Source: Termitidicoccus mucosus
Lineage (GTDB): Bacteria; Verrucomicrobiota; Verrucomicrobiia; Opitutales; Opitutaceae
DNA: 64,000 bases
Reading direction: 5' to 3'
Assembly (NCBI RefSeq): GCF_038725785.1
Contig: NZ_CP109796.1
Coordinates: 7,564,501-7,628,500 of the forward strand
Made by a program: the position numbers and the translations under genes. Under the pieces are notes generated by a model, which saw only the letters and a program-made list of their open reading frames with translations, had not been told where the DNA came from and did no database searches. This document shows positions 23,392-44,815 of the stretch, one piece after another; the first letter of the stretch is position 1; each line of letters starts with the position of its first letter.

Positions 23392-25148
23392 TCATGTGCA
23401 GGCAGTGGCGGTTGCTGTTTCAGGATTGGCCTCGGCTTGCACACGCTTGAAGAAGGCGTCCACGCTGATCACGCCCTCGTCGCCATTCACCCGTGAACGG
23501 ATGGATACGCTTTCAGTGGCGACCTCGCGCTTTCCAAGGACCACAGCAAACGGCACCTTGTCGGCCTGCGCCCGGCGGATTTTGGCGCCAACCGGATCGC
23601 GCTGGGCATCAATCGTCACTCGCAATCCAGCCCGGCGGGCGCGGGCGGCGAGTTGAGTAGCGAACTCCGTCTGCCCGTCGGTGATGGGCAGAAAACGAAT
23701 CTGCTCAGGTGCGAGCCAGAGCGGAAAGTCGCCGGCATAGTGTTCGATGAGCAGCCCCATAAAACGCTCGATGGAACCGAACACGGCGCGATGAATCATC
23801 ACAGGACGATGCGGTTTCCCGTCGCGGCCAGTATATTCGAGCCCGAAGCGTTCGGGCAGGCTGAAATCCACTTGGATCGTGCCGATTTGCCAAGAGCGCC
23901 CCAGCGCGTCGAGCGCCATGAAATCGAGCTTTGGTCCGTAAAACGCCGCCTCGCCGAGTCCCTCGGTGTGCTCCAGCCCGAGTTCCGTCACAACCGTGCG
24001 GATACATGCTTCGGCCGGTGCCCAGAGCGTATCCCCGCCTGCATACTTGGCGGTATTGGCCGGGTCGCGCAGCGACACGCGGCAGCGTGTTTTCAGGTCG
24101 AAAATGGCCATCACTTCCTGAACAAGTCGCAGGCATTGTTTGAATTCATCTTGCAATTGCTCAGGCGTGCAAAGGATGTGCCCGTCATCCTGAGTGAAGC
24201 CGCGCACGCGCACGAGGCCGTTGAGTTCGCCCGATTGCTCCTGGCGATACACGGTGCCGAATTCCGCATAGCGTTGCGGCAGGTCGCGGTAGCTGCGCGG
24301 CTCCGACGTGTAGGCCATCAGGTGCATCGGACAATTCATCGGTTTTAGTAAAAACTCCCGATCCTCGATGTGGATGGGCTCATACATGCTATTCGCATAG
24401 TAAGGATAATGACCGGATGTCTTATAAAGATCGATGGAGCCGATATGCGGCGAGTAAAGTCGCTCATAGCCATATTCGATGAGTTTGGCGGAAATGAGTT
24501 TTCCAGTTCGGTTCGGATGATCGCGCCTTTCGGCAGCAACAGGGGCAGACCGCTGCCGATGCTCGCATCAATACGAAACAAATGGAGCTGCTGTCCCAGT
24601 TTGCGGTGATCACGGCGTGCGGCCTCGGCGAGCGCAGCGAGGTGTGCATCCAGCTCTTCTTGGCTGGCGAAGGCCGTGCCGTAGATGCGCTGGAGTTGGC
24701 CAAGTTTTTCGTCTCCCCGGTGCCAGGCGCCGGCAATGGAAAGCAGCTTGAACGCCGCGACCTTGCCGGTGGAGATGACGTGCGTGCCGGCGCACAGGTC
24801 GGTGAAATCGCCGTTGGTATAGAGTGTCACCGGCTCGCCTTCAGGGATATCGTCGAGTCGGCCGAGTTTGTAGGTTTGTCCGCGTCCGGTGAAAAAGCGG
24901 AGCGCCTCCTCGCGCGAAACCTCACGGCGAACGAAGGGTTGGTTTTCGGCTACGATGCGTGCCATCTCTGCCTCGATGACGGATAGATCTTGCATCGTGA
25001 AGCGTTGAGGTCCGCCGAAATCGTAATAAAAACCGGTGTCGGTCGGCGGCCCGATATCAAGGAGCACCTCGGGAAAGAGGCGCGATACGGCGGCACCGAG
25101 CACATGCGCGGTGGAATGCCGAAGTTCCTGCACAGAAGTCATGGACAT
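23392..25148 (-). pseudogene. thrS: Threonyl-tRNA synthetase lacking the TGS domain, one frameshift
   Basis: The upstream part has the second editing-domain motifs (HSTAH, DLCAGTH) and begins the catalytic core. Near 24500 the frame breaks after TELEN and resumes one base over as ISAKLIEYGYERLYSPHIG, continuing through KPMNCPMHLMAY, YRQEQSGELNGL, GFTQDDGHIL and MIHRAVFGSIERF to an anticodon-binding domain. Restored length is about 585 residues. The N-terminal TGS domain of ordinary ThrRS is absent. The catalytic zinc ligands (Cys of NCPMH, His of DGHIL, His of MIHRA) are retained. It sits among zinc-response genes, as ThrRS paralogues do in some Zur regulons. Confidence 0.8.
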
Positions 25149-26652: not shown

Positions 26653-27951
26653 CTACTCCCATTTTGGAAATGGATCGTGCAACTCGCGCCACGCGCTTGG
26701 CATTTTGCGCATCTCCGTATCAGTAAGCAGGCAGGCGTCGAGTTGCGCGGTAATGGCCTCGCGATCCATTGCCCCCGTGCCGATAAATACCAGTTCCTGG
26801 CGTCGGTCACCAAACGGCTCTCGCCAATTTTTCATGATGGCGTTAAACGATGCGGTTGATGCCGGCCAGTATTCCTCACTCATGGCAGCCCACCAGTTGC
26901 CCGATGGCTCGCACTTGCAGATGCCTCCCGCGTGCGACCATTCGCCGACCCAGTCCATGCGCGTGGCGAGGAAGAAAAAACCCTTCGAGCGCACCACGTT
27001 TTCCGGCGGATGCGAAGCCCATGCCCAAAATCGCTCTGGATGAAATGGTCGTCGTGCGCGGTACACGAAACTCATAACCCCATGCTCATCCATTTCCGAA
27101 TGCGCCTCACCACGCAGGGTTCGCAGCCACATCGGAGATTTCGATGCGTCATCTAAAGAAAAGCGTCCTGTGTTGAGCATTTCCTGTATCGGTACACGTC
27201 CGTGTTCAGCGGTAATGAAGCGTGCGTCGGGATTGAGCGTGCGCACCATATGAGTGACGAGCGCTAGCGTGTCCGCATCCACGAGATCGCATTTATTGAG
27301 CACAATGACATCGGCGAATTCAATTTGCTCGGCCAGCAACGGTGCAAGCGAGCGCTCGTCATTGCTCCCGTTCACCTGACCGCGATCTCGCAGTGAGTCG
27401 CCGGAACTGTAGTCTTTGAGAAAATTAAATGCATCCACGACCGTCACCATCGTGTCCAGCCGCGCCACCGCACCAAGGCTCACGCCGTCCTCCCCGGCAA
27501 ACGTAAATGTTTCCGCCACCGGCAAAGGCTCCGCTATGCCCGTGGATTCAATCAACAAATAATCAAAACGCCCTTCACGTGCCAATCGAGCCACTTCGAC
27601 GAGCAAATCCTCCCGCAAGGTGCAGCAGATGCAACCGTTGGACAATTCGACGATTTTTTCTTCTCGCAACGACACCGCCGCCGCACCCCGTCCGACGAGG
27701 GCCGCATCGATGTTAACCTCCGCCATATCGTTCACGATGAGCGCGACGCGCAGCCCTTCGCGGTTGGTGAGGATGTGGTTGAGCAAAGTGGTTTTCCCGG
27801 AGCCAAGAAACCCGGACAACACGGTGACAGGCAGACGTGGATCGGTGACCTCGATTTCGATGGCGCCATCGAGCGGCTGTGTTTTTTTTGCAGTATGCAT
27901 AGGGAAGAGATAATGAATTCTGGTTTGGGATGGATTGGTTCTGGAAGCCAT
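26653..27951 (-). CDS. COG0523/CobW-family GTPase, third copy (YciC/ZagA-like)
   Basis: 432 residues from 27951; an inner ATG at 27900 gives 415 and a more usual N-terminus. Walker [18 protein letters not shown], metal site [31 protein letters not shown] and VLNKCDLV are all present. The C-terminal CobW domain contains [20 protein letters not shown] and ends [19 protein letters not shown]. This layout matches zinc-responsive YciC/ZagA proteins more closely than cobalamin CobW. It follows the small protein by seven bases in one transcription unit. Confidence 0.9.
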
Positions 27952-29355: not shown

Positions 29356-31488
29356 ATGTCCGCCTCTCAATTCGCTCAGTCAATCGCAGGTCCTTCAACA
29401 ACTAATTATAAACGCAATCGCTGCCATCTTCATATCGGCCTCACAAGTTCCCTTATTCTATTCATTGCGACAAATATACTGATACGAGCGCAGCCCGCAT
29501 CCGTCGCTTCTGCCCATGATGAATCGCCTGTATCGCTGGAACGCTTTGTGGTTACTTCCAGCCGGAGTATGCAGCCGCTGGCCGACATTCCGCAACGGGT
29601 TGAATTGATCGATGGGGCTGCGGTGTCCGAGGCTCCTTCCTGGACTTTTGTTGATGTGTTGAAAAAGGGCGCATCCGTGGACGTAATCCAATATCCGACC
29701 GGCTCGTCCGGTATCGGGTTGCGTGGTTTTCGGCCGGAGTATTCCGGAACCAATCAGCATGTCCTGATTCTGATCGACGGCCGGCCTGCCGGGGTGACGG
29801 GGCTCGGCACGCTGCCGATGGTCGCCGTCGAGCGTGTCGAAATTCTCAAGGGTCCGGCCTCGTCGCTTTACGGTGCCTCCGCCATGGGCGGTGTGGTGAA
29901 CATTATCACCAAGCGCTCTTCCGGACCGGTCGGCGGATCGCTCCAGACTAACGTTGGCAGCTTCGAAACCGGCGATATCTGGGCCAGCACTGGCGGGGGC
30001 AATCCGGCCAAGCTCGATTTCGATGTGGCGGCCCGCGTCTTCATCCGCGATCACGACGTGCGTCTCGGCAATGGAGAAACCTGGGAGCACACCAAGGCCA
30101 AAAACTACTCCGGGCTGGTCCGACTCGGTCGCGACCTCGGCAAACACTGGCGGATCGATCTCAAGGCGGGGGCATTTCTCGGACGCGACGTGGAAAACCC
30201 CGGTGCTTATTCCGGTGGTGGAATTAAGCAAACTTCGCTTGATCGCGACCAATACCACGGCGACGTGCGCCTGGTCGGATGGCTTGCCGATCACACCGTG
30301 CAAACGACCATCTTCGGTGCTTACGAGTCTGAGGATACCAACACGCAGACCAAAGGCACTTCCCCCTATCTGTCCAGTCGGCGCAAGACCGACTGGCAGG
30401 GCATCCAGATTCAAGATTCCTGGCAACCTGCCCATTGGCTCGCGTTGATTGGCGGATTCGATTACAATCTCGTCGAAAACAAAATCATATCCTACAATGC
30501 CAATGGGACACGCAAGGCGCCCTACGCGCCCAATAATACCCAGGCCACCAACGGTGTTTTTCTCGAGAACATAATGAAATTTATCGATGATCGCCTTATA
30601 CTTAACGTCGGTGCCCGCTATGATGATATTGAACTGGAGTTGAATGAAACACCCTACAGCACCGGAGTGACTCCAGGCACGGAGAGCTTCGACACCATCA
30701 ACCCGCGGGCAGGTATCGTATATCGACTGGATTCCGCGTGGCGGATCCACGCCACCATGGGCAGCGCCTTTGTGTCTCCCTCTGCCAACCAAGTCGCCGG
30801 AAGGACGGAGGAAGTGGTAGGCGACCAAATGCGTGTCGCTATCGGAAATCCCGATCTTGACCCCGAATCAAGCACGACGTGGGACGTCGGCATCGGTTAC
30901 GACCGCTCTTGGATTGCGGTCGATCTCACGTATTTTCACACCGAGGTGAAAAACATGATCGGCAGCAAGTACGTCACGAACACGCCGACCTATCGGGAAA
31001 CGCATTATTATAATGCCGACACCGCGACCCAGTCAGGCATCGAGGCCCAGGTCGACCTCGACTTCAGTCGCTGGCTGCGCGCGAAAAAAGGTTCCTGGAT
31101 GTTTCACGGATCAGCAACCAAGCTCATCGAGCGCAAGCAGCACTCCCAGGTGGAAGGTGATTCTGTGATCAGAAACGTCGCCGACCTCAAGCTCAACGCC
31201 TCACTGTCTTGGCGTCATGCTTCCTGGCGTGCCAGCGTGTCGGCCCGCTACGTCAAGGGCATGTGGGATGAAGACAATAGCACCGGCAAGATTTATACAA
31301 ACGGGATCGGCGGCGCGTATGAATATCCGTCCTTTGTGATTTGGGATGCCTCGATCGGACGTTATTTTGGAGAAAAACACTCGGTATGGCTGAAAGGGGA
31401 AAACCTGACCGACCGGTTTTATTACGAGAAAGGTGATTATTATCAGCCGGGCTTCTCCTTTTCCGCGAGCTACCGCTTTAATTTCTGA
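29356..31488 (+). CDS. TonB-dependent outer-membrane receptor
   Basis: 710 residues, intact. A long basic leader precedes the hydrophobic signal (SSLILFIATNILIRAQ), then a TonB-box-like SLERFVVTSS. The plug (about 65-190) ends ILKGPASSLYGASAMGGVVNIIT. The barrel closes with NLTDRFYYEKGDYYQPGF and terminal Phe (YRFNF). It heads a receptor/ExbB-like/DUF2149/CobN-like unit that parallels the hmu haem-uptake loci of Bacteroidota, so a tetrapyrrole or metal complex is a likely substrate; this is inference. Confidence 0.85.
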   Translation: MSASQFAQSIAGPSTTNYKRNRCHLHIGLTSSLILFIATNILIRAQPASVASAHDESPVSLERFVVTSSRSMQPLADIPQRVELIDGAAVSEAPSWTFVDVLKKGASVDVIQYPTGSSGIGLRGFRPEYSGTNQHVLILIDGRPAGVTGLGTLPMVAVERVEILKGPASSLYGASAMGGVVNIITKRSSGPVGGSLQTNVGSFETGDIWASTGGGNPAKLDFDVAARVFIRDHDVRLGNGETWEHTKAKNYSGLVRLGRDLGKHWRIDLKAGAFLGRDVENPGAYSGGGIKQTSLDRDQYHGDVRLVGWLADHTVQTTIFGAYESEDTNTQTKGTSPYLSSRRKTDWQGIQIQDSWQPAHWLALIGGFDYNLVENKIISYNANGTRKAPYAPNNTQATNGVFLENIMKFIDDRLILNVGARYDDIELELNETPYSTGVTPGTESFDTINPRAGIVYRLDSAWRIHATMGSAFVSPSANQVAGRTEEVVGDQMRVAIGNPDLDPESSTTWDVGIGYDRSWIAVDLTYFHTEVKNMIGSKYVTNTPTYRETHYYNADTATQSGIEAQVDLDFSRWLRAKKGSWMFHGSATKLIERKQHSQVEGDSVIRNVADLKLNASLSWRHASWRASVSARYVKGMWDEDNSTGKIYTNGIGGAYEYPSFVIWDASIGRYFGEKHSVWLKGENLTDRFYYEKGDYYQPGFSFSASYRFNF

Positions 31489-31524
31489 CCAGCCCGGCAA
31501 AATGGAGAAAAATCATAATAAATC

Positions 31525-32085
31525 ATGACTGCGATTGATCAAATCCGCGAACTGTTGCACCACGTGGCCGGCGTGCTGGTCTGGCCCGTGCTCATCGGCC
31601 TGATCGGCCTGGCCGGCGCCATGCTGGTCGCCTTCGGGTCGTTTCTCCGGGAGGCATGGGACCGGCGCAGAGGCCGGCGGACCTCGTTTCAAAATGACTG
31701 CCGCGAACTCGATGCGACGGCGAAAAGCGACCCGGATGGTCGCCTTGACTTGAGACTGGAGCACCTCCTGCAAGCAGCCGAGCGTCGCCGCTGGCGCTCA
31801 CTCGGACGCCTGCGCCTGGCGGTTCGCGTCGGCCCCTCGCTCGGCCTGATGGGCACGCTGATCCCCATGGCGGACGCGCTGCAGGGACTGGCCGAGGGCA
31901 ATCTCCCGGCGCTGGCCAGCAACATGGTCACCGCCTTCGCCGCCACCGTGATCGGGCTTTCCGTGAGCGTCTCGGCCTATCTGATCGCCGCGGCCCGCGA
32001 AAGCTGGGTCCGGGCGGACAGCGAGGCGCTGGCCTTCTTTGCCGAGCATCTGCTCGATAAAAATCCAACCTCCAAGGACACATGA
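31525..32085 (+). CDS. MotA/TolQ/ExbB-family proton channel protein
   Basis: 186 residues with three membrane helices: LVWPVLIGLIGLAGAMLVAF near 20, VGPSLGLMGTLIPMADAL near 105, and MVTAFAATVIGLSVSVSAYL near 140. The GPSLGLMGTLIPM and TAFAATVIGL blocks are the ExbB/TolQ core. It would energise outer-membrane transport with the DUF2149 protein, whose start overlaps by four bases. It lies 36 bases after the receptor gene. Confidence 0.85.
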   Translation: MTAIDQIRELLHHVAGVLVWPVLIGLIGLAGAMLVAFGSFLREAWDRRRGRRTSFQNDCRELDATAKSDPDGRLDLRLEHLLQAAERRRWRSLGRLRLAVRVGPSLGLMGTLIPMADALQGLAEGNLPALASNMVTAFAATVIGLSVSVSAYLIAAARESWVRADSEALAFFAEHLLDKNPTSKDT

Positions 32086-32453
32086 AACCGGCCCCCCTGC
32101 GCTTTGTCTCCCGGCGACGTCTGGCCCCGCACGGCGCCGCCCCCGGTGAGGATGAGGATCCCCTCGCCGGCATCGCCAACCTCTTCGACGTAAGCGTGGC
32201 CTTCATCGTCGCGCTCCTCATCGCCCTGTTTGCCTTGTTCTCGGCCGGCACGTTCCTCGACAAAAACTCCGAGGTCACGCTGGTCAAGACCACCGCGGAC
32301 GGCGAGACCGAGATCATCACGAAAAAAGGCGAGGAGATCAAGGTGCAGAAAGTCACCGATAAAAACCTCTCCGGCCAAGGCACCCGCCTCGGCACCGCCT
32401 ACCGCCTCGCCAGCGGCCAGGTCGTCTACGTGCCCGAAACCGACACGCCATAA
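32082..32453 (+). CDS. DUF2149 protein (ExbD-like partner)
   Basis: 123 residues, coupled to the ExbB-like gene through ATGA. EDPLAGIANLFDVSVAFIVALLIALF is the DUF2149 signature: an acidic start followed by a single membrane helix. The periplasmic part is a small beta domain. The arrangement (one N-terminal helix, periplasmic tail, next to ExbB) suggests an ExbD/TolR-like role. Confidence 0.85.
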   Translation: MKPAPLRFVSRRRLAPHGAAPGEDEDPLAGIANLFDVSVAFIVALLIALFALFSAGTFLDKNSEVTLVKTTADGETEIITKKGEEIKVQKVTDKNLSGQGTRLGTAYRLASGQVVYVPETDTP

Positions 32454-32479
32454 TTCCGCTCCGATCATCCTTTTTTAAT

Positions 32480-35400
32480 ATGACCCGATTACTCGCCCTG
32501 TCTGTGTGCCTCCTTCTCCACTCCTTGCTTTCCGCCGAGCCAGTGCGCCTGGCCTTCGTTTATGCCGGTGGCGAAAGCACCGGGCCTGATACCATTCGGC
32601 GTGCGACCGCATCGCTCGCGCCCGAGGTTGAACTGTCGCTGTTTGCTCCGGGTTCAGGCGGAGACGCCCTCACGCCGGATGTCGATCTCGGTTCGTTTGA
32701 TCTTATCTTCATCGACGGCTCCGACGAGGGTGAAGAAAACCTCGCCCGTTTCGTTGCGGCGAGGGACCGGACCAGGGTCGTCGTGGTCAATCCCACGGCC
32801 AAACTGACCGGCAACGTCTCGTTGGCCGAGCACCCTTGGCTCGAAACCTACTGGGCCAACGCCTCGCAGGACAACTACCGCGGACTCGTACGCTATCTCG
32901 TCAGGCGGGTGCTCGATCGTCCACTGCCCGGCGGCGAGGCTCCCGCGCCCATCGTGTATCCGCCGGTCGCGTTTTATCATCCCGACGCCCCCGCCTTCTT
33001 TTCCACGCTGGACGATGCGCTCGCCTGGTACGGCCGGCGCCAAGGTGAACCGGGCGCGCATGTCTTCGATCCGGCCAAGCTTACCATCGGCATTTATTTT
33101 CACATGGCGACGTATCGCTCGGGCAATCACGCCCAAGTCGACGCGCTCGTGCGAGCGATCGAAAAACGAGGGCACAACGTGCTCGCCCTCATGCGGCGAG
33201 GTAATCCGGATTTTACCACCCTGCTCATGCGCGGCGGGAGACCCGTCATCGACGTGCTCCTCACCATGGGAGAGAGCTTTATTAGCGACCAAAACGAAGA
33301 AGAACGGCTGGCTCCACTGCGGCAGATGAATGTGCCCATCCTCGGAGCCCTCACCCAATACCGGCTGACGGAGCGGCAGTTTGCGGAGGCGCCCAGCGCC
33401 ATCCACCCGGGCCTGACGCCTTTCGTCATTTATGCGGAACGCGCGGGCGGGATCGAGCCGATGGTGGTGGCCGGAAAAAACGACGCGTCCGGACTGGATC
33501 GCCGCAGCGTCCCCTTTCCCGCCCAGATCGAATGGCGCGCCGATCGCGCCGTCGCCTGGGCGCGGCTGCATCGCGCGGCCAACGCGGAAAAACGCATCGT
33601 CTTCACCTACTGGAGCGAAGGCGGAGGCAAGGCCAATGTCGGCGGCGATCCGGACGATTTCCTCGACGTGCCCGCCAGCCTAGTGAGCCTGCTGCGTGAA
33701 ATGCGGGCGCGCGGTTACGACACGGGGCCGGACGCCATGCCCGATCGCGACGGCCTGGTGGCGCGGATGTCCCGGGAAACCTCGAATGTCGGCAACTGGG
33801 CTCCGGGCGAACTTGCCGCGCGCGTGAAGAATGCCGAGGTCGCGCTCCTGCCGGAGGCGCTTTACCGCTCCTGGTTCGACGAGCTGCCCGCCGCCCGCCG
33901 GGCGGAGATCGTCGAGATGTGGGGTCCGCCGCCGGGCGACATCATGGTGCACACCGACGACAACGGAAACCGGTTTCTCGTCCTCCCGAAGATCCAGCTC
34001 GGCAACATCCTCATCGCGCCGCATCCCGACTGGGGCTACCTCCAGAGCAATCGGGCGCTCATGTCAGCCGGCGCCCTGCCGCCCCATCACCAGTACCTCG
34101 CGTTCTTCCTCTGGCTCCAACGCGAATGGAAGGCCGACGCCTGGGTCAGCCTCTTCTCCAACATCGTGCTCCAGCCCGGCAAGGCGGCGGACGACCACAT
34201 CGGCATCCTGCTGGGGAATCTCCCGCACATCCATCCGGAGCGACTGGGCGCGAACGGCAGCATCGGCAACAAGCGCAAAGCCATGGCCCAGACGGTGAGT
34301 TGGTACAACATCGTCACGCCGGCCGACGCCGGGCTCCCACTCACGGAGTTGAAGGCCCAACTCGCCCGCTACGAGGAGCAGCCCGATCCCGGGCTGCGCG
34401 CGCAGGCCGAGTCGGTGATCCGAAAAGAGATCGTCCGCAACGGACTCGACCGTGCCCTCGCTCCGCTCGACATTACCGCCGCTCCGTTCGGGAAACTCAT
34501 TGAAGCCCTGAATCGTTATCTGGCCGATTTGGAACGCGCCCACGCGCCGCACGGCACCCGGGTGCTCGGCGAGATCCCCTCCGGCCCCGCGCTCTCCGAC
34601 ATGGTCACGGCCATGCTTGGTCACAATTTTTTGGATACACTCGCCCGCCCCGCCGGTGCCGCGCCGACATCCGGCGAGACCGCCCGATCCCTGGTTTCCG
34701 CAGTGGTTGCGGACGGCACCGCTCCAGCCGAGGCGCTCGCCGCGCACGGTTGCGCCGTCACCCCGGAAGCCGAGGCGCAATTGAGGCTCGCCGTCGATTA
34801 TGCCGGACGCCTCCGCGAGGCCCCGCGCGAGCTGGCCTCGCTGCTGGCCGCGCTCGAAGGCTCCTATATCGATCCCGGACCGATGGACGAACCGATCCGG
34901 CGTCCGGATTCGGTTCCGCCCGGCCGCTCGCTCTACAACTTTGACCAGTCGGCCGTGCCGACACCCGAAGCCGAGGCCATCGGCGTGAAGCAGGCCGAGG
35001 CATTGATCGCCGCGCATCGGGAAAAACACGGCGGAGCTTATCCCACCAAACTCGCCTTTGTCCTCTGGTCCGCCGAAATCGCCAAAAATAATGGCGTGAC
35101 CGAGGCGCAGATTCTCCACCTGCTGGGCACCCGCGCCGTCCGCAACGAACGCGGACAGGTCACCGGGGTGGAGCTTATTCCCCGCGAGGAACTGGGGCGG
35201 CCTCGCGTCGACGTGCTCGCCACCACCAGCGGCGCATACCGTGACGGCTATCCCGACAAGATCGATCTCATCGCCGCCGCCGTGCGCCTGGCCGCCGCCA
35301 GCCCCGAGGCCGACAATCCCGTGTCCCTTGCCACCGACACCACGGAAAAAAAGCTCAAGGTGCTCGGAACCGATCCCGCCCGCGCCAACGCCCTCGCCCT

Positions 35401-36511
35401 TGCCCGCGTGTTCTCACCCGCGCCCAACGCCTATTCGCCGAGCATCCAGTTTCTCGCCAAATCCGGCGACCAGCGTGGGGACGAGGCCCGCATGGCCGAT
35501 CTTTACACCCGGCGCCTGAGTCATGCCTACGGCGGTGGCCTTTACGGCGAGCCGGCTCGCGCCGCCTTTGAGCAAAATGTCGGCGCGATCGATGCCGCCA
35601 CACTCTCGCGCACCAGCAATGTCAACGGCCTGCTCGACCATCCCATGTCGGCCGGGTTTCTTGGCGGGCTCAACCTCGCCGCCAAAGCCGTCACCGGACG
35701 CGACGTTGATCTTTACGTGAGCAACCTGCGCGATGCACGCGACACCTCCATCGAACCCGCCAGCCGTGCGCTCCAGACCGAACTGCGCGCGCGTTATTTC
35801 AATCCGAAATGGCTCAACGAAATGAAGGCTCACGGCTACGATGGAGCCCGGACTATGATGTTCATGACCGATCATCTCGATTTGTGGGACAGCACCGCCA
35901 CCCAGACCGTCGGCACCGCCGACTGGGCGGAGGTGAAGGCCGTCTATGTCGACGACAAACTCGGCCTCGACCTCGATGCTTTTTTCGAACGTTACAATCC
36001 TCACGCTCAACAGGTGCTCCTCTCCAACCTGCTTGGCGCCGCGAAGCGCGGTCACTGGAACGCCTCCGCCGCTGATCTGGCTCAAGTCGCCCGTCGCCTC
36101 GCGCAATCGGCCATTGATCACGGAGCCGTGTGCGAGGCCGGAGTGTGCCGCAATCAGGCGCTCACCGAGTTCATCGGCCAGTCGCTGACGGGAGCACCCG
36201 ACGCTGCGGAACTCGTCAAGAATTACCAGGCGGCACTCGATCACGTCACGGGTCGCGCCCCGGCCGCACCCGCGCCAGCGACCGCCCCATCAGCGGCCGC
36301 GCCCACCCCGACGGCGGCAGCACCCGCGACTCCCGGCTCGCCGCCGCCTGAAGGCACGGTAAGCGTGCAGGGTCGCGTGCTGGAGGAGGTCTCCCGCACG
36401 CCGATAGCTTCAGATGTGGGCATGACGGCATCGCATCGAACTCTCTGGCTGACTGCAATCACAGCATTGTGCCTCCTTCTTTTCGGATGGTTTCGCCGCC
36501 CGGCAAATTGA
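32480..36511 (+). CDS. CobN-like chelatase, exported and membrane-anchored (HmuS-type)
   Basis: 1343 residues, full CobN/BchH/ChlH length. Unlike cytoplasmic CobN it has a signal peptide (RLLALSVCLLLHSLLSAEP) and a C-terminal membrane helix (LWLTAITALCLLLFGWF) after a Pro/Ala-rich linker of about 70 residues, so the catalytic body lies in the periplasm. Core marks include TIGIYFHMATYRSG, VLLTMGESF, the VHTDDNGNRFLVLPKIQLGN region and the DDHIGILLGNLPHIHPE block. Such proteins next to ExbB/DUF2149 and a TonB receptor are HmuS-like; HmuS has been linked to removing iron from haem. Metal and direction here are not known. Confidence 0.85.
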   Translation: MTRLLALSVCLLLHSLLSAEPVRLAFVYAGGESTGPDTIRRATASLAPEVELSLFAPGSGGDALTPDVDLGSFDLIFIDGSDEGEENLARFVAARDRTRVVVVNPTAKLTGNVSLAEHPWLETYWANASQDNYRGLVRYLVRRVLDRPLPGGEAPAPIVYPPVAFYHPDAPAFFSTLDDALAWYGRRQGEPGAHVFDPAKLTIGIYFHMATYRSGNHAQVDALVRAIEKRGHNVLALMRRGNPDFTTLLMRGGRPVIDVLLTMGESFISDQNEEERLAPLRQMNVPILGALTQYRLTERQFAEAPSAIHPGLTPFVIYAERAGGIEPMVVAGKNDASGLDRRSVPFPAQIEWRADRAVAWARLHRAANAEKRIVFTYWSEGGGKANVGGDPDDFLDVPASLVSLLREMRARGYDTGPDAMPDRDGLVARMSRETSNVGNWAPGELAARVKNAEVALLPEALYRSWFDELPAARRAEIVEMWGPPPGDIMVHTDDNGNRFLVLPKIQLGNILIAPHPDWGYLQSNRALMSAGALPPHHQYLAFFLWLQREWKADAWVSLFSNIVLQPGKAADDHIGILLGNLPHIHPERLGANGSIGNKRKAMAQTVSWYNIVTPADAGLPLTELKAQLARYEEQPDPGLRAQAESVIRKEIVRNGLDRALAPLDITAAPFGKLIEALNRYLADLERAHAPHGTRVLGEIPSGPALSDMVTAMLGHNFLDTLARPAGAAPTSGETARSLVSAVVADGTAPAEALAAHGCAVTPEAEAQLRLAVDYAGRLREAPRELASLLAALEGSYIDPGPMDEPIRRPDSVPPGRSLYNFDQSAVPTPEAEAIGVKQAEALIAAHREKHGGAYPTKLAFVLWSAEIAKNNGVTEAQILHLLGTRAVRNERGQVTGVELIPREELGRPRVDVLATTSGAYRDGYPDKIDLIAAAVRLAAASPEADNPVSLATDTTEKKLKVLGTDPARANALALARVFSPAPNAYSPSIQFLAKSGDQRGDEARMADLYTRRLSHAYGGGLYGEPARAAFEQNVGAIDAATLSRTSNVNGLLDHPMSAGFLGGLNLAAKAVTGRDVDLYVSNLRDARDTSIEPASRALQTELRARYFNPKWLNEMKAHGYDGARTMMFMTDHLDLWDSTATQTVGTADWAEVKAVYVDDKLGLDLDAFFERYNPHAQQVLLSNLLGAAKRGHWNASAADLAQVARRLAQSAIDHGAVCEAGVCRNQALTEFIGQSLTGAPDAAELVKNYQAALDHVTGRAPAAPAPATAPSAAAPTPTAAAPATPGSPPPEGTVSVQGRVLEEVSRTPIASDVGMTASHRTLWLTAITALCLLLFGWFRRPAN

Positions 36512-37569: not shown

Positions 37570-38297
37570 ATGATGACAGCCAAGCAGATTGCGGTAATCC
37601 GACAGCAATTGCAGGGCTTCGTGGAGGAGTTCGCCGAAGAACTGGGGCGCAGCGAACGCCGCCATGGTGCGGCAAATATTTGGAGGGCTTGTTGCGGGAG
37701 GGAGAGTGCAAGTCGATCGAACCGCTGGCGGTCCGCGTCGGCGGGAGCGACCAGGTGCTCCAGCAGTTCGTCAACCAGAGCCCGTGGGACCATGCCGCTG
37801 TGCTGCACCGGCTGCGCCAGCACATGGGCCGGCGAGCCTAGGCCGGCGGAGTGCTGGTGCTCGATGACACCAGCCTGCCCAAGCAGGGCCGCCACTCGGT
37901 CGGAGTCGCCCGCCAGTATTGCGGGGCCTCGGGCAAGATTGCCAATTGCCAGAGCGTGGTGACCTGGCATTGGACGGGCGCCGGCCTGCACTGGCCGCTC
38001 ACTGCCCAACTCTATCTTCCGCCCGAGTGGACTGATGATCCCGGGCGGATGATCAGGGCGGGGGTGCCTGCGCACGCGCAGGCGTTCCGGGAAAAATGGC
38101 GCATCGCACTCGCCTTGCTCGACGAGATGAAGCCGCAGTTGCCGGCCTATCAGGCCATCGTCTTCGATGCTGGCTACGGAGTCGTGCAGCCCCTGCTGGC
38201 GGAACTGGATAAACGGCAGGAGCCCTACGTGGCTCAAGTTCTTGGCAATATCGCCGCGTGGCCGGCCGAAGCCGTGGCCACCCTCAATCCGGCACGG
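37570..38297 (+). pseudogene. IS701-type transposase remnant
   Basis: The start (TAKQIAVIRQQLQGFVEEFA) is in one frame. Near 37676 it shifts to LEGLLREGECKSIEPLAVRV and QFVNQSPWDHAAVLHRLRQH, a TAG stop follows at 37839-37841, then VLVLDDTSLPKQGRHSVG and VARQYCGASGKIANCQ, the first DDE block of IS701-like transposases. The C-terminal third is missing: at about 38297 the sequence switches to a piece of an ABC ATPase. Dead by frameshift, stop and truncation. Terminal inverted repeats are not visible. Confidence 0.75.
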
Positions 38298-38466
38298 CGT
38301 GGCCGACCGGGTGGCGCTGCTCGTGCCAGGCGGGCTGCGCGTGACGGGGACGTCCGCCGAGGTGTTGCGCGAGGAGATACTGCGCCCGGTGTATGGCGGG
38401 CGGCTGGAAGTGTTCGCCCACTCCGCCAGCGGCAGCCCCGTGGTGCTGCCGCTGGCCGCGCGGTGA
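38297..38466 (+). pseudogene. C-terminal fragment of an ABC ATPase (BtuD/FecE-like)
   Basis: GVADRVALLVPGGLRVTGTS followed by AEVLREEILRPVYGGRLEVF and VVLPLAAR is the end of a vitamin B12/iron-siderophore type ABC ATPase (adrv-x-L-x-x-G-x-x-x-x-G-x-P-x-E-V-L). The front of the gene has been replaced by the transposase remnant. Its stop lies six bases from the convergent transporter gene. Confidence 0.6.
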
Positions 38467-38472
38467 GGCGCG

Positions 38473-40137
38473 TCACGCGGCGAAAAACACCAGCATTTGC
38501 GCGGTGAGCACGCGCAGCAGCATGACGAGCGGATACACGGTCGCGTAGGCGACGGACGTGCCCGTGCCCTCGTGGGTCTGCTGGGCGAAGGCGAGCGCGG
38601 GCGGATCGGTCATCGACCCCGCGAGCAACCCGCAGGTCTCCGGTAGCGGCAGGCGCGCGAAGCGGCGCGCCATCCACGCGGTGAACATCACCGGCACCAG
38701 CGTGATCGCGGTGCCCAGTGCCATCCAGCCGAGGCCCTGCACGCTGAACAGATACTGGAAAAACATGTCGCCCGACTTGAGCCCCACGCAGGCGAGGAAA
38801 AGCACGATGCCGATCTCGCGCAGGGCGAGGCTGGCATTCGGCGGCACATACCAAACCATCGGGCCGATGCTGCCGAGGCGGCCGAGCAGAATCGCCACGA
38901 CCAGCGGCCCGCCCGCGAGTCCGAGCCGCACCGGCGCGGGCAATCCCGGCAGCGCTACCGGCACCATGCCGAGTAGGACGCCCAAGAGGATGCCGAGAAA
39001 AAACGGCCCCACGCGCGTGTGGTCGAGTTCCTTGGGCGAATCGCCGAGCAGGCGCGCCGTCTCGGCGATGGCGTCGGAGGTGCCGACGAGCGTGAGAATG
39101 TCGCCGAACTGCACGCGCAGCCCCGGCTCTGGCGCGAATTCCATGCCATGGCGTGACAAGCGCGTGGCGGCCACGCCGAAACGCGCCTGCAACTGGAGGG
39201 TGGTAAAGTTCTTCCCGATGACCTCGCGGTGCGTGACGATCACCCGGCGGTTGATCACCGGGCCGTCCAGTTCGCGCAAATCCTGCGCCGCCTCGCCGCC
39301 CGCTAGCATGCGCGCCTGCGCGAGCGCGTCGGGCAGGCCGACGACGAGCAACTGGTCGCCGGCGGCGAGCACATGGGCGGGCGTAGGCACGCAAAGCGTG
39401 TCGCCGCGCCGCAGGCGCGAGACATTCAACCCGCGCACCTTGGCAAAGGAACCGGCGATCGTGGAGCCCGCCAGCCCCGGGTTGCGCACCTCCAGGTTCG
39501 CGCGCCCGACTTTCGGCTCCTCCCGGGCCATCGGCGAGGCCGCCTCGGCCGCGCCGCTGGCCGGCAGCCGACGCGCGACGAACCTCCGCGCCGCGAACAT
39601 GGCGATGATCACGCCGCACACGCCAAACGGATAGGCCAGCGCGTAGGCGACGCCCTGCGTCTGCACGGCCTCGTCGCCCGCGCCGATCTCGACGAGCGCC
39701 TGTTGCGCGGCGGCGAGGCTGGGGGTGTTGGTCGTCGCGCCGGACAGCAGGCCCGCCGCCACCGGCAGCGGCATGCCTGAGAGGTGCAGAATCACCACGC
39801 AGACCGCGACGCCGAGCAGGACATTGCCCGCCGCCAGCAGATTGAGCTTCAGCCCCGTGCGGCGCAGCGACGAAAAAAAGCCGGGGCCGAGCTGGAGTCC
39901 GATGGAAAAGACAAACAGGATCAGCCCGAACTCGCGAATGAACTCGAGCACGTGATGCTCCACCCTCACCCCTGACCGCGCGAAAACGAGCCCCGCGAAC
40001 AACACGCCGGCGATGCCGACGCTCACCTTGCCGATTCTCAACCGGCTGAGCGCGAGCCCGCCCGCCGCGACCAAGGCAAACGCGATGAGCTGGTGCCCCG
40101 CGGTCGAGTGCTCCCAGAAGCGAAGCCACGCGTTCAT
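38473..40137 (-). CDS. AspT/YidE-type putative transporter with two TrkA-C domains
   Basis: 554 residues from the ATG at 40137, which has GAGAGG nine bases upstream. About five membrane helices form each half (GLILFVFSIGLQLGPGFF and ATTNTPSLAAAQQAL in the first, GIVLFLACVGLKSGDMFF and GSMTDPPALAFAQQ in the second). These are repeated family motifs of the aspartate-alanine exchanger superfamily. Two RCK_C/TrkA-C domains lie between (about 190-345). Known members exchange amino acids or dicarboxylates; others are unassigned. Here the gene follows a cobalamin riboswitch, so a B12-linked substrate is conceivable. Confidence 0.8.
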   Translation of the reverse strand: MNAWLRFWEHSTAGHQLIAFALVAAGGLALSRLRIGKVSVGIAGVLFAGLVFARSGVRVEHHVLEFIREFGLILFVFSIGLQLGPGFFSSLRRTGLKLNLLAAGNVLLGVAVCVVILHLSGMPLPVAAGLLSGATTNTPSLAAAQQALVEIGAGDEAVQTQGVAYALAYPFGVCGVIIAMFAARRFVARRLPASGAAEAASPMAREEPKVGRANLEVRNPGLAGSTIAGSFAKVRGLNVSRLRRGDTLCVPTPAHVLAAGDQLLVVGLPDALAQARMLAGGEAAQDLRELDGPVINRRVIVTHREVIGKNFTTLQLQARFGVAATRLSRHGMEFAPEPGLRVQFGDILTLVGTSDAIAETARLLGDSPKELDHTRVGPFFLGILLGVLLGMVPVALPGLPAPVRLGLAGGPLVVAILLGRLGSIGPMVWYVPPNASLALREIGIVLFLACVGLKSGDMFFQYLFSVQGLGWMALGTAITLVPVMFTAWMARRFARLPLPETCGLLAGSMTDPPALAFAQQTHEGTGTSVAYATVYPLVMLLRVLTAQMLVFFAA

Positions 40138-40331
40138 GCCGCACCGCCTCTCGCCGGGACAAGGGACGCCGTGTATCCTGTATCCAGATACATTTCGACA
40201 GGCAAACAACGGCGCCGCCCGGGGTTGAAACGGGCGGCGCACGCGATGATGAATGGATAAACGCCCGCGGATATGCGGGACGAGAACGGAAGGCCGGAAG
40301 ACCGTCCGCCGGGTGTGGGTAGCAGCCTCAT
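40134..40331 (-). CDS. Possible small ORF in the riboswitch leader
   Basis: 65 codons from an ATG in the conserved CATCGCACGAATGAGG context to a TGA that overlaps the transporter ATG (ATGA). Arg/Gly/Pro-rich, with no recognisable domain. It could be a coupled leader peptide or chance; the terminator-like hairpin lies inside it. Confidence 0.2.
   Translation of the reverse strand: MRLLPTPGGRSSGLPFSSRISAGVYPFIIACAARFNPGRRRCLPVEMYLDTGYTASLVPARGGAA
40212..40240 (-). terminator. Strong GC hairpin in the transporter leader
   Basis: A perfect 10-bp stem (GCGCCGCCCG / CGGGCGGCGC) with a 9-base loop stands between the riboswitch and the transporter start. On the minus strand it is followed by CGTTGTTT. 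It may be the riboswitch-controlled terminator. Confidence 0.5.
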
Positions 40332-40399
40332 TCGTGCGATGAAGTAAAGTCGGCCAAGCCTCGCCGTTGGGACGGGGCGATGGCCGGATTGCGTTGCCG

Positions 40400-40680
40400 C
40401 CGGCAGGGATGTTCGGACTCCGGGCTTCAGGAGACGCGTGTGGCGCGCTCCAGCCATTGGCCGGCCTTCACCCGCTCGCAGACGAGAGGATTGGCGTTGC
40501 CCGGAGCGCGTGTTCTCGAAATGCGTCCGGTGGACAATGTCACCCGTAACCGCAGCGCGACTGTGGCCGGTTTGCACGGCCTTTCCCGCTGCCGGGGATG
40601 GTGTGAAAAAGAACGGGGCGAATTATCGGTTTCGCACCGGTGGCGTGCAAGGACTTTCTCGCCGCACAAATTGCCATTCA
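40400..40680 (-). ncRNA. Cobalamin riboswitch (upstream of the transporter)
   Basis: Read on the minus strand the core is GGGAAAGGCCGTGCAAACCG then GCCACAGTCGCGCTGCGGT, matching the conserved GGGAA, paired arm and ACAGTCGC segments of the adenosylcobalamin aptamer. The 3' B12 box follows as CGGAGTCCGAACATCCCTGCC (40402-40422). The 5' border is approximate. Cobalamin binding would usually shut off the downstream transporter. Confidence 0.8.
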
Positions 40681-40779
40681 CACGCCTGCGGCGGATAAAC
40701 CGGCAGAACACCGGCGCCGATGCCCATGCGCATTTCCCTGCCTGTAAGCCTGCTGCAAAAACCCGCGACATGCCACTTG

Positions 40780-41100
40780 ACTTCCGGGCATTGCCGTCGC
40801 TCATTCGCCCCCTGTTTTTTGATAAATGACAAAATGTGCAGCGGACGGGGAATGCCGTGAGAATCGGCGACAGTCGCGCTGCGGTATCGAGTCACTCGTC
40901 CCAATTTCCAGACACCACCATTCCGCGCCGCCAGCGCGCCGCATGGCAGTTTCGGGAAGCAAAGCACAGCCGGAAAAGGCCGCGCACAGTCGCGCGCGCC
41001 AGTTCGGTCAAGACGAAGGGATGGGGTCCGCGCCAGGTTCCTCAAGCAGGCGCCGCGCGGAAAAACTCGGAGTCCGAACACCCGGCTGCACACGCCAGAG
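40780..41100 (+). ncRNA. Cobalamin riboswitch (upstream of nrdA)
   Basis: Core GGGGAATGCCGTGAGAATCG then GCGACAGTCGCGCTGCGGT starts near 40846, and the B12 box CGGAGTCCGAACACCCGGCTG lies near 41070-41090. The two riboswitches share ACAGTCGCGCTGCGGT and CGGAGTCCGAACA. The 5' border is approximate. B12-controlled class I ribonucleotide reductase is known where a B12-dependent NrdJ also exists (for example Streptomyces), and the same logic is likely here. Confidence 0.85.
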
Positions 41101-41146
41101 AAACCAACCGAAAACCGCTCCCTCATCGCACGAATGAAAGGACTTC

Positions 41147-43699
41147 ATGCCAACCCGCACCGTTCCGGACGCGGCCGCCACTGACGCGGCCGTCCGACAC
41201 CCCGACGCGCCAAACCACGCGGACATTTCCGCAGCGCGCCCGCCGCCCGGCGGCCACACCGGCGCGACCACATCCCCCGGCATCGCCGCAGGTCCGCCCG
41301 CCCATCCGGCACCGAACCATGCCTCCGCGCGCCCGCGCACCGGCACGGTCGGTTTTCCTGTCTCCGCGCCTTCTTCAATCCCTCCGCCGCCCTCTTCCCG
41401 CATGACCTATATCGTCAAGGACAACGGCAAACGCCGCCTCCCTTTCGACGCGACGCGCATCAGCCGCTACCTCGATCAAATCCACGCCGAGTTTCCCCAA
41501 CTCGATCTCGCCGACTACAAGCAAAAGCTCCTCGCCTTCATCGGCACGCGCGACGATTTCGCGGCTGACGACCTGATCGATCACATGATCCGCGAAGCCG
41601 AGTCGCGCACCGACGTCCACCTGCCGCAATGGGACGCGTTTGCCGCGCGCCTCTACCTCAACAAGCTCTATAAGAAAGCCAGCAAAAACCGCTTCTACGA
41701 CGCCGACGACCGCTACGGCTCCTACGTCGGCCTTCAGGAAAGCCTCGCCGGGCGCGGGATTTATTCCGGCGATATTCTCCGCGCCTATTCGAAGGACGAA
41801 CTCATCGAGGCCGGCCTCCTCATCGACCCGGAGAAAGACAAACTCTTCAACTACCCCGGCCTCTACCTGCTCGCCACGCGCTATCTCGCCAGTCCCGAGC
41901 TCGGCGAAGTCTACGAGCTTCCGCAGGAACGCTGGCTCACCATCGCGCTTTGCCTCATGCAAAACGAGCCGCGCGCCACCCGGCTCGCCCTCGTCCGCGA
42001 GGCCTACTGGGCGCTCAGCAACCTCTACATGACCGTGGCCACGCCCACGCTCACCAACGCCGGCAAGCGCGGCGGCCAGCTCTCCAGTTGCTTCATCGAC
42101 ACCGTGGACGACTCGCTCCAGGGCATCTACGACAGCAACACCGACTGCGCCCGCGTCAGCAAACACGGCGGCGGTGTCGGCGCCTACCTCGGCTTCATCC
42201 GCTCCAGCGGCTCCGCCATCCGCGGCGTCGCGCGCGCCAGCGGCGGCGTCATTCCCTGGGTCAAGCAGCTCAACAACACCGCCGTCAGCGTTGACCAGCT
42301 CGGCCAGCGCAAGGGCGCCATCGCCGTTTACCTCGACGTTTTCCACAAGGACATCGAAGCCTTCCTCGACCTCCGCCTCAACAACGGCGACCAGCGCCTC
42401 CGCGCCCACGACATCTTCACCTCCGTCTGCATCCCCGACATTTTCATGGAGGCCGTCGAACGCCGCGGCGACTGGTATCTCTTCGACCCGCACGAGGTGC
42501 ATGAGAAGAAAGGCTGGTATCTCCAAGATTTCTACGACGAGCGGCGAGGCTCCGGCACCTTCCGGGAAAAATACCGGGAACTCGTTTCCGACGAGACCAT
42601 CGGCAAGAAGATCGTCAAGGCCATCGACATCGCCAAGCGCATCATGCTCAGCCAGCTTGAGACCGGCACGCCCTTCATGTTCTACCGCGACGAGGTCAAC
42701 CGCATGAACCCCAACAAGCACCTCGGCATGATCTACTCCAGCAACCTCTGCACCGAGATCCTGCAAAACATGAGCCCCACCCGCGTCATCCAGGAAATCA
42801 TCAGCGGGGACCAGATCGTCACCACGAAAAAGGCCGGCGACTTCGTCGTCTGCAACCTCTCCTCCATCAACCTCGCGCGCGCCGTCACCGCCGACGAGAA
42901 AAACGCCGAGCTCATCACCGAGCGCCCCACGCTCGAACGCCTCATCGACATCCAGGTCCGCATGCTCGACAACGTCATCGACCTCAACCGGCTCCCCGTC
43001 CCGCAGGCCGCCATCACCAATCAGAAATACCGCGCCATCGGCCTCGGCACCTTCGGCTGGCACCACCTCCTCGCGCTCAAGGGCATCGACTGGAACTCGC
43101 CCGCCGCCGAGGACTACGCCGACGCATTGTATCAGGAAATCAACTACATCGCCATCCGGGCCAGCCACGCGCTCGCGAAGGAGAAAGGCCCGGGCAAGGC
43201 CTTCCGCGGCAGCGAATGGCAGACCGGCGAGTATTTTCAGCGCCGCGGCTACACCTCCGAACGCTGGCGGAAACTCGCCGCCGCCGTGTCCGACGGAGGG
43301 CTGCGCAACGCCTGGCTCATCGCCGTCGCTCCCAATATGAGCACCGCTCAAATCGCCGGCTCCACCGCCTCCATCGACCCGATCTTCAGCGTGTTTTATT
43401 ACGAGGAAAAGAAGGACTACCGCCGCCCTGTCATCGCGCCCGACCTCTCGCTGGAGACCTATCCCTACTACGAACGCGGCGCCTACAAGCTCGACCAGTT
43501 CGCCAGCATCCGCCAGAACGCGCGCCGCCAGCGTCACGTGGACCAGTCGCAGAGCTTCAACTTCTACGTCCCCAGCGCCATCAAGGCCGGCAAACTCCTC
43601 GAACTCCACCTCACCGCTTGGCGTGAAGGGCTCAAGACCACCTATTACGTCCGCTCCAACGACATCGACATCAACGAATGCGAATGGTGCTCCAGCTAG
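41147..43699 (+). CDS. nrdA: Class I ribonucleoside-diphosphate reductase, alpha subunit
   Basis: 850 residues from the ATG at 41147, which has AAAGGA four bases upstream. The first 85 residues are a Pro/Ala/His-rich extension not usual in NrdA; the standard ATP-cone starts at Met86 (41402, MTYIVKDNGKRRLPFD). The radical/active-site Cys are in QLSSCFIDT, NLCTEIL and FVVCNLSSINL, and the C-terminal pair is ECEWCSS for thioredoxin-type reduction. It reduces ribonucleotides for DNA synthesis with NrdB. It is preceded by a cobalamin riboswitch. Confidence 0.95.
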   Translation: MPTRTVPDAAATDAAVRHPDAPNHADISAARPPPGGHTGATTSPGIAAGPPAHPAPNHASARPRTGTVGFPVSAPSSIPPPPSSRMTYIVKDNGKRRLPFDATRISRYLDQIHAEFPQLDLADYKQKLLAFIGTRDDFAADDLIDHMIREAESRTDVHLPQWDAFAARLYLNKLYKKASKNRFYDADDRYGSYVGLQESLAGRGIYSGDILRAYSKDELIEAGLLIDPEKDKLFNYPGLYLLATRYLASPELGEVYELPQERWLTIALCLMQNEPRATRLALVREAYWALSNLYMTVATPTLTNAGKRGGQLSSCFIDTVDDSLQGIYDSNTDCARVSKHGGGVGAYLGFIRSSGSAIRGVARASGGVIPWVKQLNNTAVSVDQLGQRKGAIAVYLDVFHKDIEAFLDLRLNNGDQRLRAHDIFTSVCIPDIFMEAVERRGDWYLFDPHEVHEKKGWYLQDFYDERRGSGTFREKYRELVSDETIGKKIVKAIDIAKRIMLSQLETGTPFMFYRDEVNRMNPNKHLGMIYSSNLCTEILQNMSPTRVIQEIISGDQIVTTKKAGDFVVCNLSSINLARAVTADEKNAELITERPTLERLIDIQVRMLDNVIDLNRLPVPQAAITNQKYRAIGLGTFGWHHLLALKGIDWNSPAAEDYADALYQEINYIAIRASHALAKEKGPGKAFRGSEWQTGEYFQRRGYTSERWRKLAAAVSDGGLRNAWLIAVAPNMSTAQIAGSTASIDPIFSVFYYEEKKDYRRPVIAPDLSLETYPYYERGAYKLDQFASIRQNARRQRHVDQSQSFNFYVPSAIKAGKLLELHLTAWREGLKTTYYVRSNDIDINECEWCSS

Positions 43700-43762: not shown

Positions 43763-44815
43763 ATGCCCGACCTCTCCACCGCTCCCCTCCGCCGCATCAA
43801 GATCCTCGATCCGCTCAGCCCCAATCGCACCACCGCCATCATCAACGGCGCCACCAGCGGCATCCTCAACTGGAACGACATCCCTTACCCCTCCTTCTAC
43901 CGCGCCTACAAGGAGCTCTCCACCAACTTCTGGATACCCGACGAGGTGGACATGAAAGGCGACGCCAAACAATACCCGCTCCTCTCCGAACGCGAAAAAT
44001 ACGCCTACAACGCCATCATCGGCCTGCTCGCCACCCTCGATTCCCCGCAGACGCGCTTCATCTACAACGTCGCCGAATACGTCACCGATCCCGCCGTCCA
44101 CGCCAACACCGCCATCATCGCGCAGCAGGAGGTCATCCACAACGAGAGCTACTCCTACGTCCTGGCCTCCATCACCAACCTCCAGGAGCAGAATCGCGTC
44201 TTCGAACTCGCCCGCACCCACCCCACCATCATCAGGCGCAACCAGCCCATCATGGACGCTTACGACACGTTCATGACCGGCAAAACCGCGCCCCACCTCG
44301 TCCGCGCCCTCATCCAGTCGAGCATCCTCGAAGGCATCAACTTCTACAGCGGCTTCGCCTATTTCTACAATCTGGTCCGCCAGAACAAAATGACCGGCAC
44401 GGGCAAAATCATCAGCTTCATCAACCGCGACGAACTCGCGCATTCGAAATTCATCAGCGAAGTCATCCGCGCCATCCTCGGCGAAAACCCCGAACTCCAG
44501 ACCGACGCCCTCATCGACTACACGCACGCCGCCTTCCGCCACGCCGTCGAGCTGGAGAGCGAATGGTCGGAGGAAGTCCTAACCGGCATCGACGGCATCG
44601 ACGTCGCCGAGATGGTCGGCTACGTGAAATACCGCGCCAACAAGATGCTCGGCATGCTCGGCATTCCCGAGATGTATCCAGAATTCGGAGACAATACCAT
44701 GCCCTGGATTCGCGCCTACGCCGACAACTTCACGCAGACGAAGACCGACTTCTTCGAGATGCGCAACGCCAGCTACAAAAAGACGAACCAGGACAACGGC
44801 TTCGACGACTTGTGA
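43763..44815 (+). CDS. nrdB: Class I ribonucleoside-diphosphate reductase, beta subunit
   Basis: 350 residues. All di-metal ligands can be seen: Asp in LLATLDSPQ, Glu and His in QQEVIHNESYSY, Glu in SILEGINFYSG, and Glu and His in NRDELAHSKF. The radical Tyr is four residues after the first His (HNESY), so it is a tyrosyl-radical enzyme, not the Phe-bearing class Ic. The tail NQDNGFDDL binds the alpha subunit. The 63-base gap after nrdA is AT-rich with repeated AATTCTTAA. Confidence 0.95.
   Translation: MPDLSTAPLRRIKILDPLSPNRTTAIINGATSGILNWNDIPYPSFYRAYKELSTNFWIPDEVDMKGDAKQYPLLSEREKYAYNAIIGLLATLDSPQTRFIYNVAEYVTDPAVHANTAIIAQQEVIHNESYSYVLASITNLQEQNRVFELARTHPTIIRRNQPIMDAYDTFMTGKTAPHLVRALIQSSILEGINFYSGFAYFYNLVRQNKMTGTGKIISFINRDELAHSKFISEVIRAILGENPELQTDALIDYTHAAFRHAVELESEWSEEVLTGIDGIDVAEMVGYVKYRANKMLGMLGIPEMYPEFGDNTMPWIRAYADNFTQTKTDFFEMRNASYKKTNQDNGFDDL

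Follow-up and report, generated by a model that had tools for sequence, protein, structure and literature searches.

In P. acnes, cobalamin riboswitches are reported at nrdAB and nrdDG and none at nrdRJ (PMC3848588). A B12 riboswitch is likewise known for nrdABS of Streptomyces coelicolor (Borovok 2006, as cited in PMC4991794). M. tuberculosis ppe2 needs a uORF that overlaps it by AUGA; in its B12 riboswitch, the start of this uORF is covered by the hairpin that bears L13 (PMC11260477). The role of P13/L13 in cobalamin riboswitches has been published (PMC10653944, PMC9600662), and some members of the AAEx transporter family, such as SucE1, export succinate (PMC9527358). The locus compared with them here lies in a 64 kb stretch (the window) of a 7.9 Mb genome in two contigs.

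Two head-to-head cobalamin-type aptamers

The aptamers and the genes that they precede are as follows.

40824-41090 (Rfam span 40796-41103), + strand: cobalamin-type aptamer, nrdAB leader; lineage model R1 76.2 bits, E 1.8e-25; RF00174 21.2 bits, E 0.0055, below gathering
40610-40400 (Rfam span 40611-40385), - strand: cobalamin-type aptamer, transporter leader; R1 111.4 bits, E 1.2e-37; RF00174 19.3 bits, E 0.019, below gathering
41147-43699, + strand: nrdA, class I RNR large subunit; PF02867 525.9 bits; NF006665 1395 bits for 41402-43696
43763-44815, + strand: nrdB, class I RNR small subunit; PF00268 258 bits
44847-45311, + strand: flavodoxin-like protein after nrdB; PF00258 42.9 bits
45348-45674, + strand: thioredoxin-like protein; PF00085 40.4 bits
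40137-38473, - strand: YidE-type transporter, AspT/YidE/YbjL (AAEx) family; PF06826 261.8 bits; TrkA_C 70 bits; NF003007 605 bits (cut-off 449)

Alongside RF00174 we used R1, a covariance model trained on 22 aptamers that belong to other genera within the family. The training loci came from Rfam and motif searches, and 22 of 27 were used; L006 (the window itself), L117 and L126 (other families) and L185 and L186 (same genus) were omitted. The 16 nt search motif was taken from the window's own core, so the core match of R1 is partly circular; the full-length match and the covariation in the training set are not. Among the four R1 matches listed for the 64 kb, the third best scored 9.3 bits, against 111.4 and 76.2 bits for the two aptamers. 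Rfam in gathering mode returned no match anywhere in the window, both RF00174 scores falling short of a cut-off (31.5 bits) that is the curators' annotation limit and no structural feature. In E-value mode RF00174 aligned end to end on either strand, with the core and the B12 box in order.

The original prediction had proposed two aptamers with core and B12 boxes standing head to head, to be checked by a covariance-model search. Such a search finds them on both strands, at full length with R1 and RF00174; their 5' ends are about 210 nt apart. The span first given, 40400-41100, is right in place and slightly too narrow in extent (about 40385-41103, with hairpins reaching 40328 and 41137), and profile searches agree with the downstream genes that had been named, nrdA and nrdB on the + strand and the transporter on the - strand. 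No sigma-70-like promoter passed in a scan of 40100-41450.

Of 252 genomes in the family, 185 contain the core pattern CAGTYGCGCTRCGGTW and eight its reversed control (counted by hand from the table); downstream genes were read for part of these loci. In the R1 training alignment of 22 relatives, 14 of the 30 predicted pairs, in P3-P6 and the peripheral helices, show changes on both sides. The outer P4 pair takes six standard forms among 66 aptamers, a set in which the B12 box and core had to fit a regular expression; the loci dropped include L140, L157, L158, L163, L174, L176 and L188, and window duplicates were removed. The aptamer subtype is found family-wide and is partly hidden from Rfam's cut-off.

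Six cobalamin-type aptamers are present in the genome. One lies upstream of class III nrdD, and the remaining ones outside the pair precede btuF with btuC- and btuD-like genes, an exbB-exbD-receptor set and a TonB-type receptor (by eye). The targets of sister aptamers, metE, btuF, btuB-like receptors, cobD-like genes and nrdD (all names except nrdD assigned by eye), are typical of B12 riboswitches. The pair in the window is a real, functional-looking switch pair of a known kind, with corrinoid binding predicted. Newer are the head-to-head arrangement, for which a search of the open-access literature found no earlier report, the transporter target and a subtype that Rfam's cut-off partly conceals.

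Several neighbouring features were observed in passing. At 29356-36511 (+), a receptor-like ORF, an ExbB-like ORF and a CobN/Mg-chelatase-family protein (PF02514 799.8 bits) stand in a row, the ExbB-like ORF resembling by eye one behind aptamer L002. At 38302-38466 (+), the C-terminal end of a BtuD-like ATPase survives as a remnant (49 of 54 residues shared with the btuD-like ORF in L220), tail to tail with the transporter and in a region that also has a transposase-like ORF (37851-38507, by eye). Two CobW/G3E-GTPase-like ORFs and a threonyl-tRNA-synthetase-like pair (16480-18336, 26653-27951 and 23392-25148, all on the - strand) look by eye like a zinc-starvation set.

P13/L13 hairpins in the two leaders

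The following elements lie between the aptamers and their genes.

41119-41142, + strand: P13/L13 hairpin of nrdA, UCC-C-UCAU-CGCACGA-AUGA-AA-GGA, read from the sequence; -3.0 kcal/mol alone, no better than shuffles
40342-40328, - strand: P13/L13 hairpin of the transporter leader, with AUG (40331-40329) in its 3' arm; -3.9 kcal/mol alone
40331-40134, - strand: candidate leader ORF of 65 codons starting in P13; its stop TGA overlaps the transporter ATG (AUGA)
40244-40209, - strand: terminator-like hairpin inside the leader, followed by TGTTTG; -25.8 kcal/mol, GC-rich

The 15-mer TCATCGCACGAATGA occurs exactly at 41123-41137 (+) and 40342-40328 (-) and nowhere else in the window. It forms the hairpin UCAU-CGCACGA-AUGA with the loop CGCACGA. 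By the first rule applied, 63 of the 66 aptamers parsed in the order have such a P13/L13 hairpin after the B12 box, L117, L126 and L177 being without it; a laxer rule, used for the pair counts, gave 64 hairpins with U-A (56), A-U (7) or U-G (1) as the innermost P13 pair. Because nearly all parsed aptamers have P13/L13, TCATCGCACGAATGA was read as a regulatory hairpin and not as a mark of local duplication. The AUG of P13 was considered as a universal start codon and rejected, since seven of the 64 hairpins have UUG at that place.

The L13 loop begins with CGC, the complement of GCG in L5. An L5 of UCGCG is paired with an L13 of CGC(N)1-2GA in 11 of 12 aptamers, and an L5 of UUGCG (n = 51) with CGCA.. 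in 49, with another A-rich loop in two and with CGC(N)1-2GA in none; these counts come from related sequences and so do not represent independent events. Such matching of types is the pattern that a kissing loop would preserve, assuming a bulged helix for UCGCG, where the kissing helix needs a 2 nt bulge in L13 (3 bp without the bulge). Folded alone and compared with shuffles, neither P13 is more stable (z 0.72 for nrdA, z -0.66 for the transporter, aspT). The weakness of the nrdA hairpin fits, short of proof, a dependence on the kissing loop.

On the nrdA side, the 3' arm of P13 contains the Shine-Dalgarno sequence GGA (41140-41142), paired with UCC and 4 nt before the ATG at 41147. The Shine-Dalgarno sequences of the metE leaders L168 (UCCU/AGGA) and L187 (UCC/GGA) are likewise paired in P13. 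The ATG at 41147 adjoins the hairpin, and homology to other NrdA proteins begins at 41402 (MTYIVKDNG). The 85-codon open frame between them (41147-41401, +) is of low complexity and has a flat GC content by codon position (0.73/0.76/0.75); because this extension lacks codon periodicity, the ATG at 41147 is a candidate start of nrdA only. As a separate observation, an additional conserved element, GCGUGAGAG ... UGCUCUU, is found after P13 and close to the start codon in leaders before btuB-like receptors (L118, L121, L125, L172 and similar), and is absent from those of nrdA and aspT.

On the transporter side, the candidate leader ORF has a counterpart in the genome G620, a 66-codon ORF with the same AUGA overlap. 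The leader frame stays open in shuffles with frequencies of 0.39 and 0.58 for the two leaders, before a factor of one in three for the frame, and no Shine-Dalgarno sequence was seen before the AUG of the candidate ORF. Coupling of this ORF to the transporter gene is suggestive only, as the frame may be due to chance. The terminator-like hairpin also recurs in G620, likewise 87 nt downstream of the AUG, with -20.9 kcal/mol and followed by CTTTTT; the tails are U-rich in both. Terminator scans, which covered loops of 3-8 nt only, did not list the hairpin at 40244-40209.

RNR classes and the origins of the two leaders

The original prediction held that nrdAB, a B12-independent RNR, would be switched against a B12-dependent enzyme. 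This logic holds, a class II RNR being present in the genome. The nrdJ gene that was to be looked for is of a different type from the usual one: genome searches with TIGR02504 and PF02867 found the window's NrdA alone and no NrdJ. These searches had suggested the absence of a class II RNR, an interpretation abandoned when TIGR02505 recovered an RTPR-type gene (contig C1, 3284790-3287456; 888 residues). We take an active-site NPCxE and a C-terminal cysteine pair to be the class II RTPR motifs, and both occur in this protein. It has an ATP cone, NPCAE and a C-terminal CAGGAC, and it matches PDB entry 1l1l (E 3.9e-28) with the C-termini aligned. It was called RTPR-type and not filed under the equivalog because it scores below the TIGR02505 cut-off (207.2 versus 340 bits); this model matches in all ten genomes tested and exceeds its cut-off in none of them. 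R1 found no aptamer at the RTPR locus (L199), giving just a 15 nt match of 12 bits. The class III nrdD (PF13597 626 bits) has its aptamer upstream at C1 5232332-5232542.

One genome gives a complete predicted logic of B12-dependent RNR choice for classes I, II and III, with a class II RNR hidden from the usual NrdJ models and an aptamer subtype partly hidden from the Rfam cut-off. The original prediction, limited to the window, missed the RNR-linked nrdD aptamer and the recurrence of the transporter family described below.

RNRs of about 1100 residues in relatives were considered as NrdJ and rejected; that of L131 is by eye a class I NrdA with two ATP cones. On TIGR02504 (cut-off 400 bits) most of these proteins score 343-371 bits, and three of 61 genomes exceed the cut-off. 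It was also observed that L199 391-3057 and other RTPR-type RNRs of the family escape TIGR02504, PF02867 and the TIGR02505 cut-off; B12-dependent RNRs may be under-annotated.

The two leaders have different relatives. Among 20 aptamers placed in a tree, that of nrdA clusters with the metE aptamers of G524, G556, G710 and G719 (100/100). The transporter aptamer shares 88.6% identity with the genome's own nrdD aptamer, 2.4 Mb away, and these two group with aptamers of G620 and G621 (93/100), G621 being counted as an aptamer only, with its downstream gene past the contig end. In G620 the transporter and its riboswitch lie behind groEL (by eye), and the genome has no PF02867 match, i.e. no nrdA.

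NrdA matches at E 1e-150 occur in eight of 387 genomes of the phylum, this one included, and NrdA is foreign to most of the phylum. The protein shares 85.5% identity with that of G524 and 79.7% with that of Listeria; in the NrdA tree it forms with G524 a sister group to Listeria (99/99). A riboswitch common to the two nrdA genes was rejected, no aptamer having been found upstream of the G524 gene. As a side observation, an nrdA in the record L070, which bears the title Bacillus subtilis SK7B5, has its place among Stenotrophomonas sequences (75% to the query), probably through contamination or a wrong label. The Shine-Dalgarno sequence and ATG of nrdA (AAAGGACUUCAUG) resemble those of metE in G719 (AACGGACUCCCAUG), from which we infer that nrdAB arrived by horizontal transfer as a set and was placed behind a metE-type leader already resident. 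The operon may originally have had a different riboswitch, since 16 of 80 fetched nrdA loci were scanned upstream and RF00174 was found in five of nine from Xanthomonadaceae (one of them cut 424 bp upstream), none of four from Listeria and none of three from Halomonadaceae.

The transporter clears the YidE equivalog NF003007 (605 versus 449 bits) and misses the Asp/Ala antiporter equivalog TIGR03802 (222.1 versus 546.95 bits). Beyond this genome and G620, YidE/AspT-family genes stand behind cobalamin riboswitches in three of ten loci read: G070 (family f21), G054 and G138 (f20). The transporters of G070 and G054 were checked by profile and that of G138 by eye. With 333 and 328 bits on NF003007, the former two are below the cut-off and so belong to a different branch. 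Transporters of the YidE/AspT family recur behind B12 riboswitches in three families of the order. With the family named as a recurrent neighbour, its substrate becomes open to direct test. Searches of the open-access literature listed no paper that links AspT, YidE or a succinate transporter to a cobalamin riboswitch.

Proposed control and comparison with known systems

The two aptamers very probably belong to independent class-I-type cobalamin riboswitches, one in the 5' leader of each divergent transcript, with B12 shutting both off. The ligand, the direction of control, the coupling and the attenuation are what we infer, as follows. Adenosylcobalamin or a related corrinoid would fill the aptamer, upon which L5 (AG-UCGCG-CU) would kiss L13 (CGCACGA) and stabilize the weak P13 hairpin. 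In the nrdA leader, P13 would pair with the Shine-Dalgarno GGA and stop translation of the nrdA-nrdB-flavodoxin-thioredoxin set. On the transporter side, the AUG in P13 may start the short leader ORF coupled to the transporter gene, and the terminator-like hairpin could act as a second brake. With B12 present, the class II enzyme would supply deoxynucleotides; without B12, class I (nrdAB) and class III (nrdD, through the sister aptamer) would be released.

E. coli YidE is an AAEx-family transporter, and B12 shortage would block methylmalonyl-CoA mutase and so favour succinate export. The transporter could be a putative B12-gated export valve for succinate or another C4 acid, although we consider this improbable. 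With B12, succinate would proceed to propionate through the B12-dependent mutase; without B12 it would have to exit, and an AAEx exporter would be released by the kind of switch that frees B12-independent RNRs and MetE. If this were so, B12 riboswitches would have gained control of the same transporter family repeatedly within the order.

Several other readings of the locus were weighed. The shared 15-mer near the starts had been taken in the original prediction to suggest duplication of the whole control region, and the exact 15-mer and a 50 nt inverted repeat of 80% complementarity are what one ancestral region duplicated in place would leave. A 15-mer of this type is, however, common to nearly all aptamers of the family (P13/L13 in 63 of 66), the two aptamers of the window sit on different branches, one with metE aptamers of four other genomes (100/100) and one with nrdD (88.6% identical), G620 and G621, and G620 has the aspT riboswitch without an adjoining nrdAB. 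Duplication in place is highly improbable, and that claim was given up. That the aptamers are degenerate, non-binding relics with the core retained would suit their RF00174 scores below gathering, the aberrant L5 and the weak P13. Yet the same departures run across the family together with compensatory changes, and L001, a sister aptamer in the same genome, reaches the RF00174 gathering cut-off (32.7 bits), making this very unlikely.

It is also very improbable that the riboswitches activate, with the genes on when B12 is present: one activating corrinoid riboswitch is published (PMC10653944), but here P13 covers the Shine-Dalgarno sequence or the AUG, as in repressing types, and the targets are B12-independent isozymes and uptake genes. 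A more serious possibility, if a tentative one, concerns the transporter side, which might be controlled by attenuation alone, through a ligand-dependent terminator, with the leader ORF a chance frame. The matching offset of the terminator-like hairpin in two genera and the chances of an open frame (0.39 and 0.58) speak for it; the 3' arm of P13 is not part of the terminator, no direct switch between them was seen and the AUGA overlap is present in both genera, which speaks against it.

Taken as repressing class-I-type riboswitches, the two aptamers share with RF00174 class I the core, the B12 box, the P3-P6 junction, the peripheral helices and a P13/L13 predicted to be able to kiss L5 and mask the start. 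They differ in L5, where the consensus quoted in PMC10653944 is UCCCG and the form here is U(C/U)GCG with matching changes in L13. As in P. acnes, class I and class III RNRs stand behind cobalamin riboswitches and class II is free of one; unlike P. acnes, the class II enzyme is of RTPR type, and the nrdAB leader faces a second riboswitch and has a P13 that suggests control of translation. With nrdABS of S. coelicolor, as the citing source presents it, the locus shares a B12 riboswitch on a class Ia RNR and a class II enzyme in the genome, whereas the aptamer subtype, the neighbour and the likely level of control differ. In domain content the transporter resembles the AAEx family (AspT; SucE1, PMC9527358), with PF06826 and TrkA_C, and it falls below the TIGR03802 cut-off of AspT (222 of 547 bits). 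The closest precedent for its leader is the short ORF of ppe2, masked by an L13 hairpin and ending in an AUGA overlap, of which the frame and the overlap are seen here. Unlike ppe2, the predicted ORF has its AUG inside P13, no Shine-Dalgarno sequence seen before it and a terminator-like hairpin within it.
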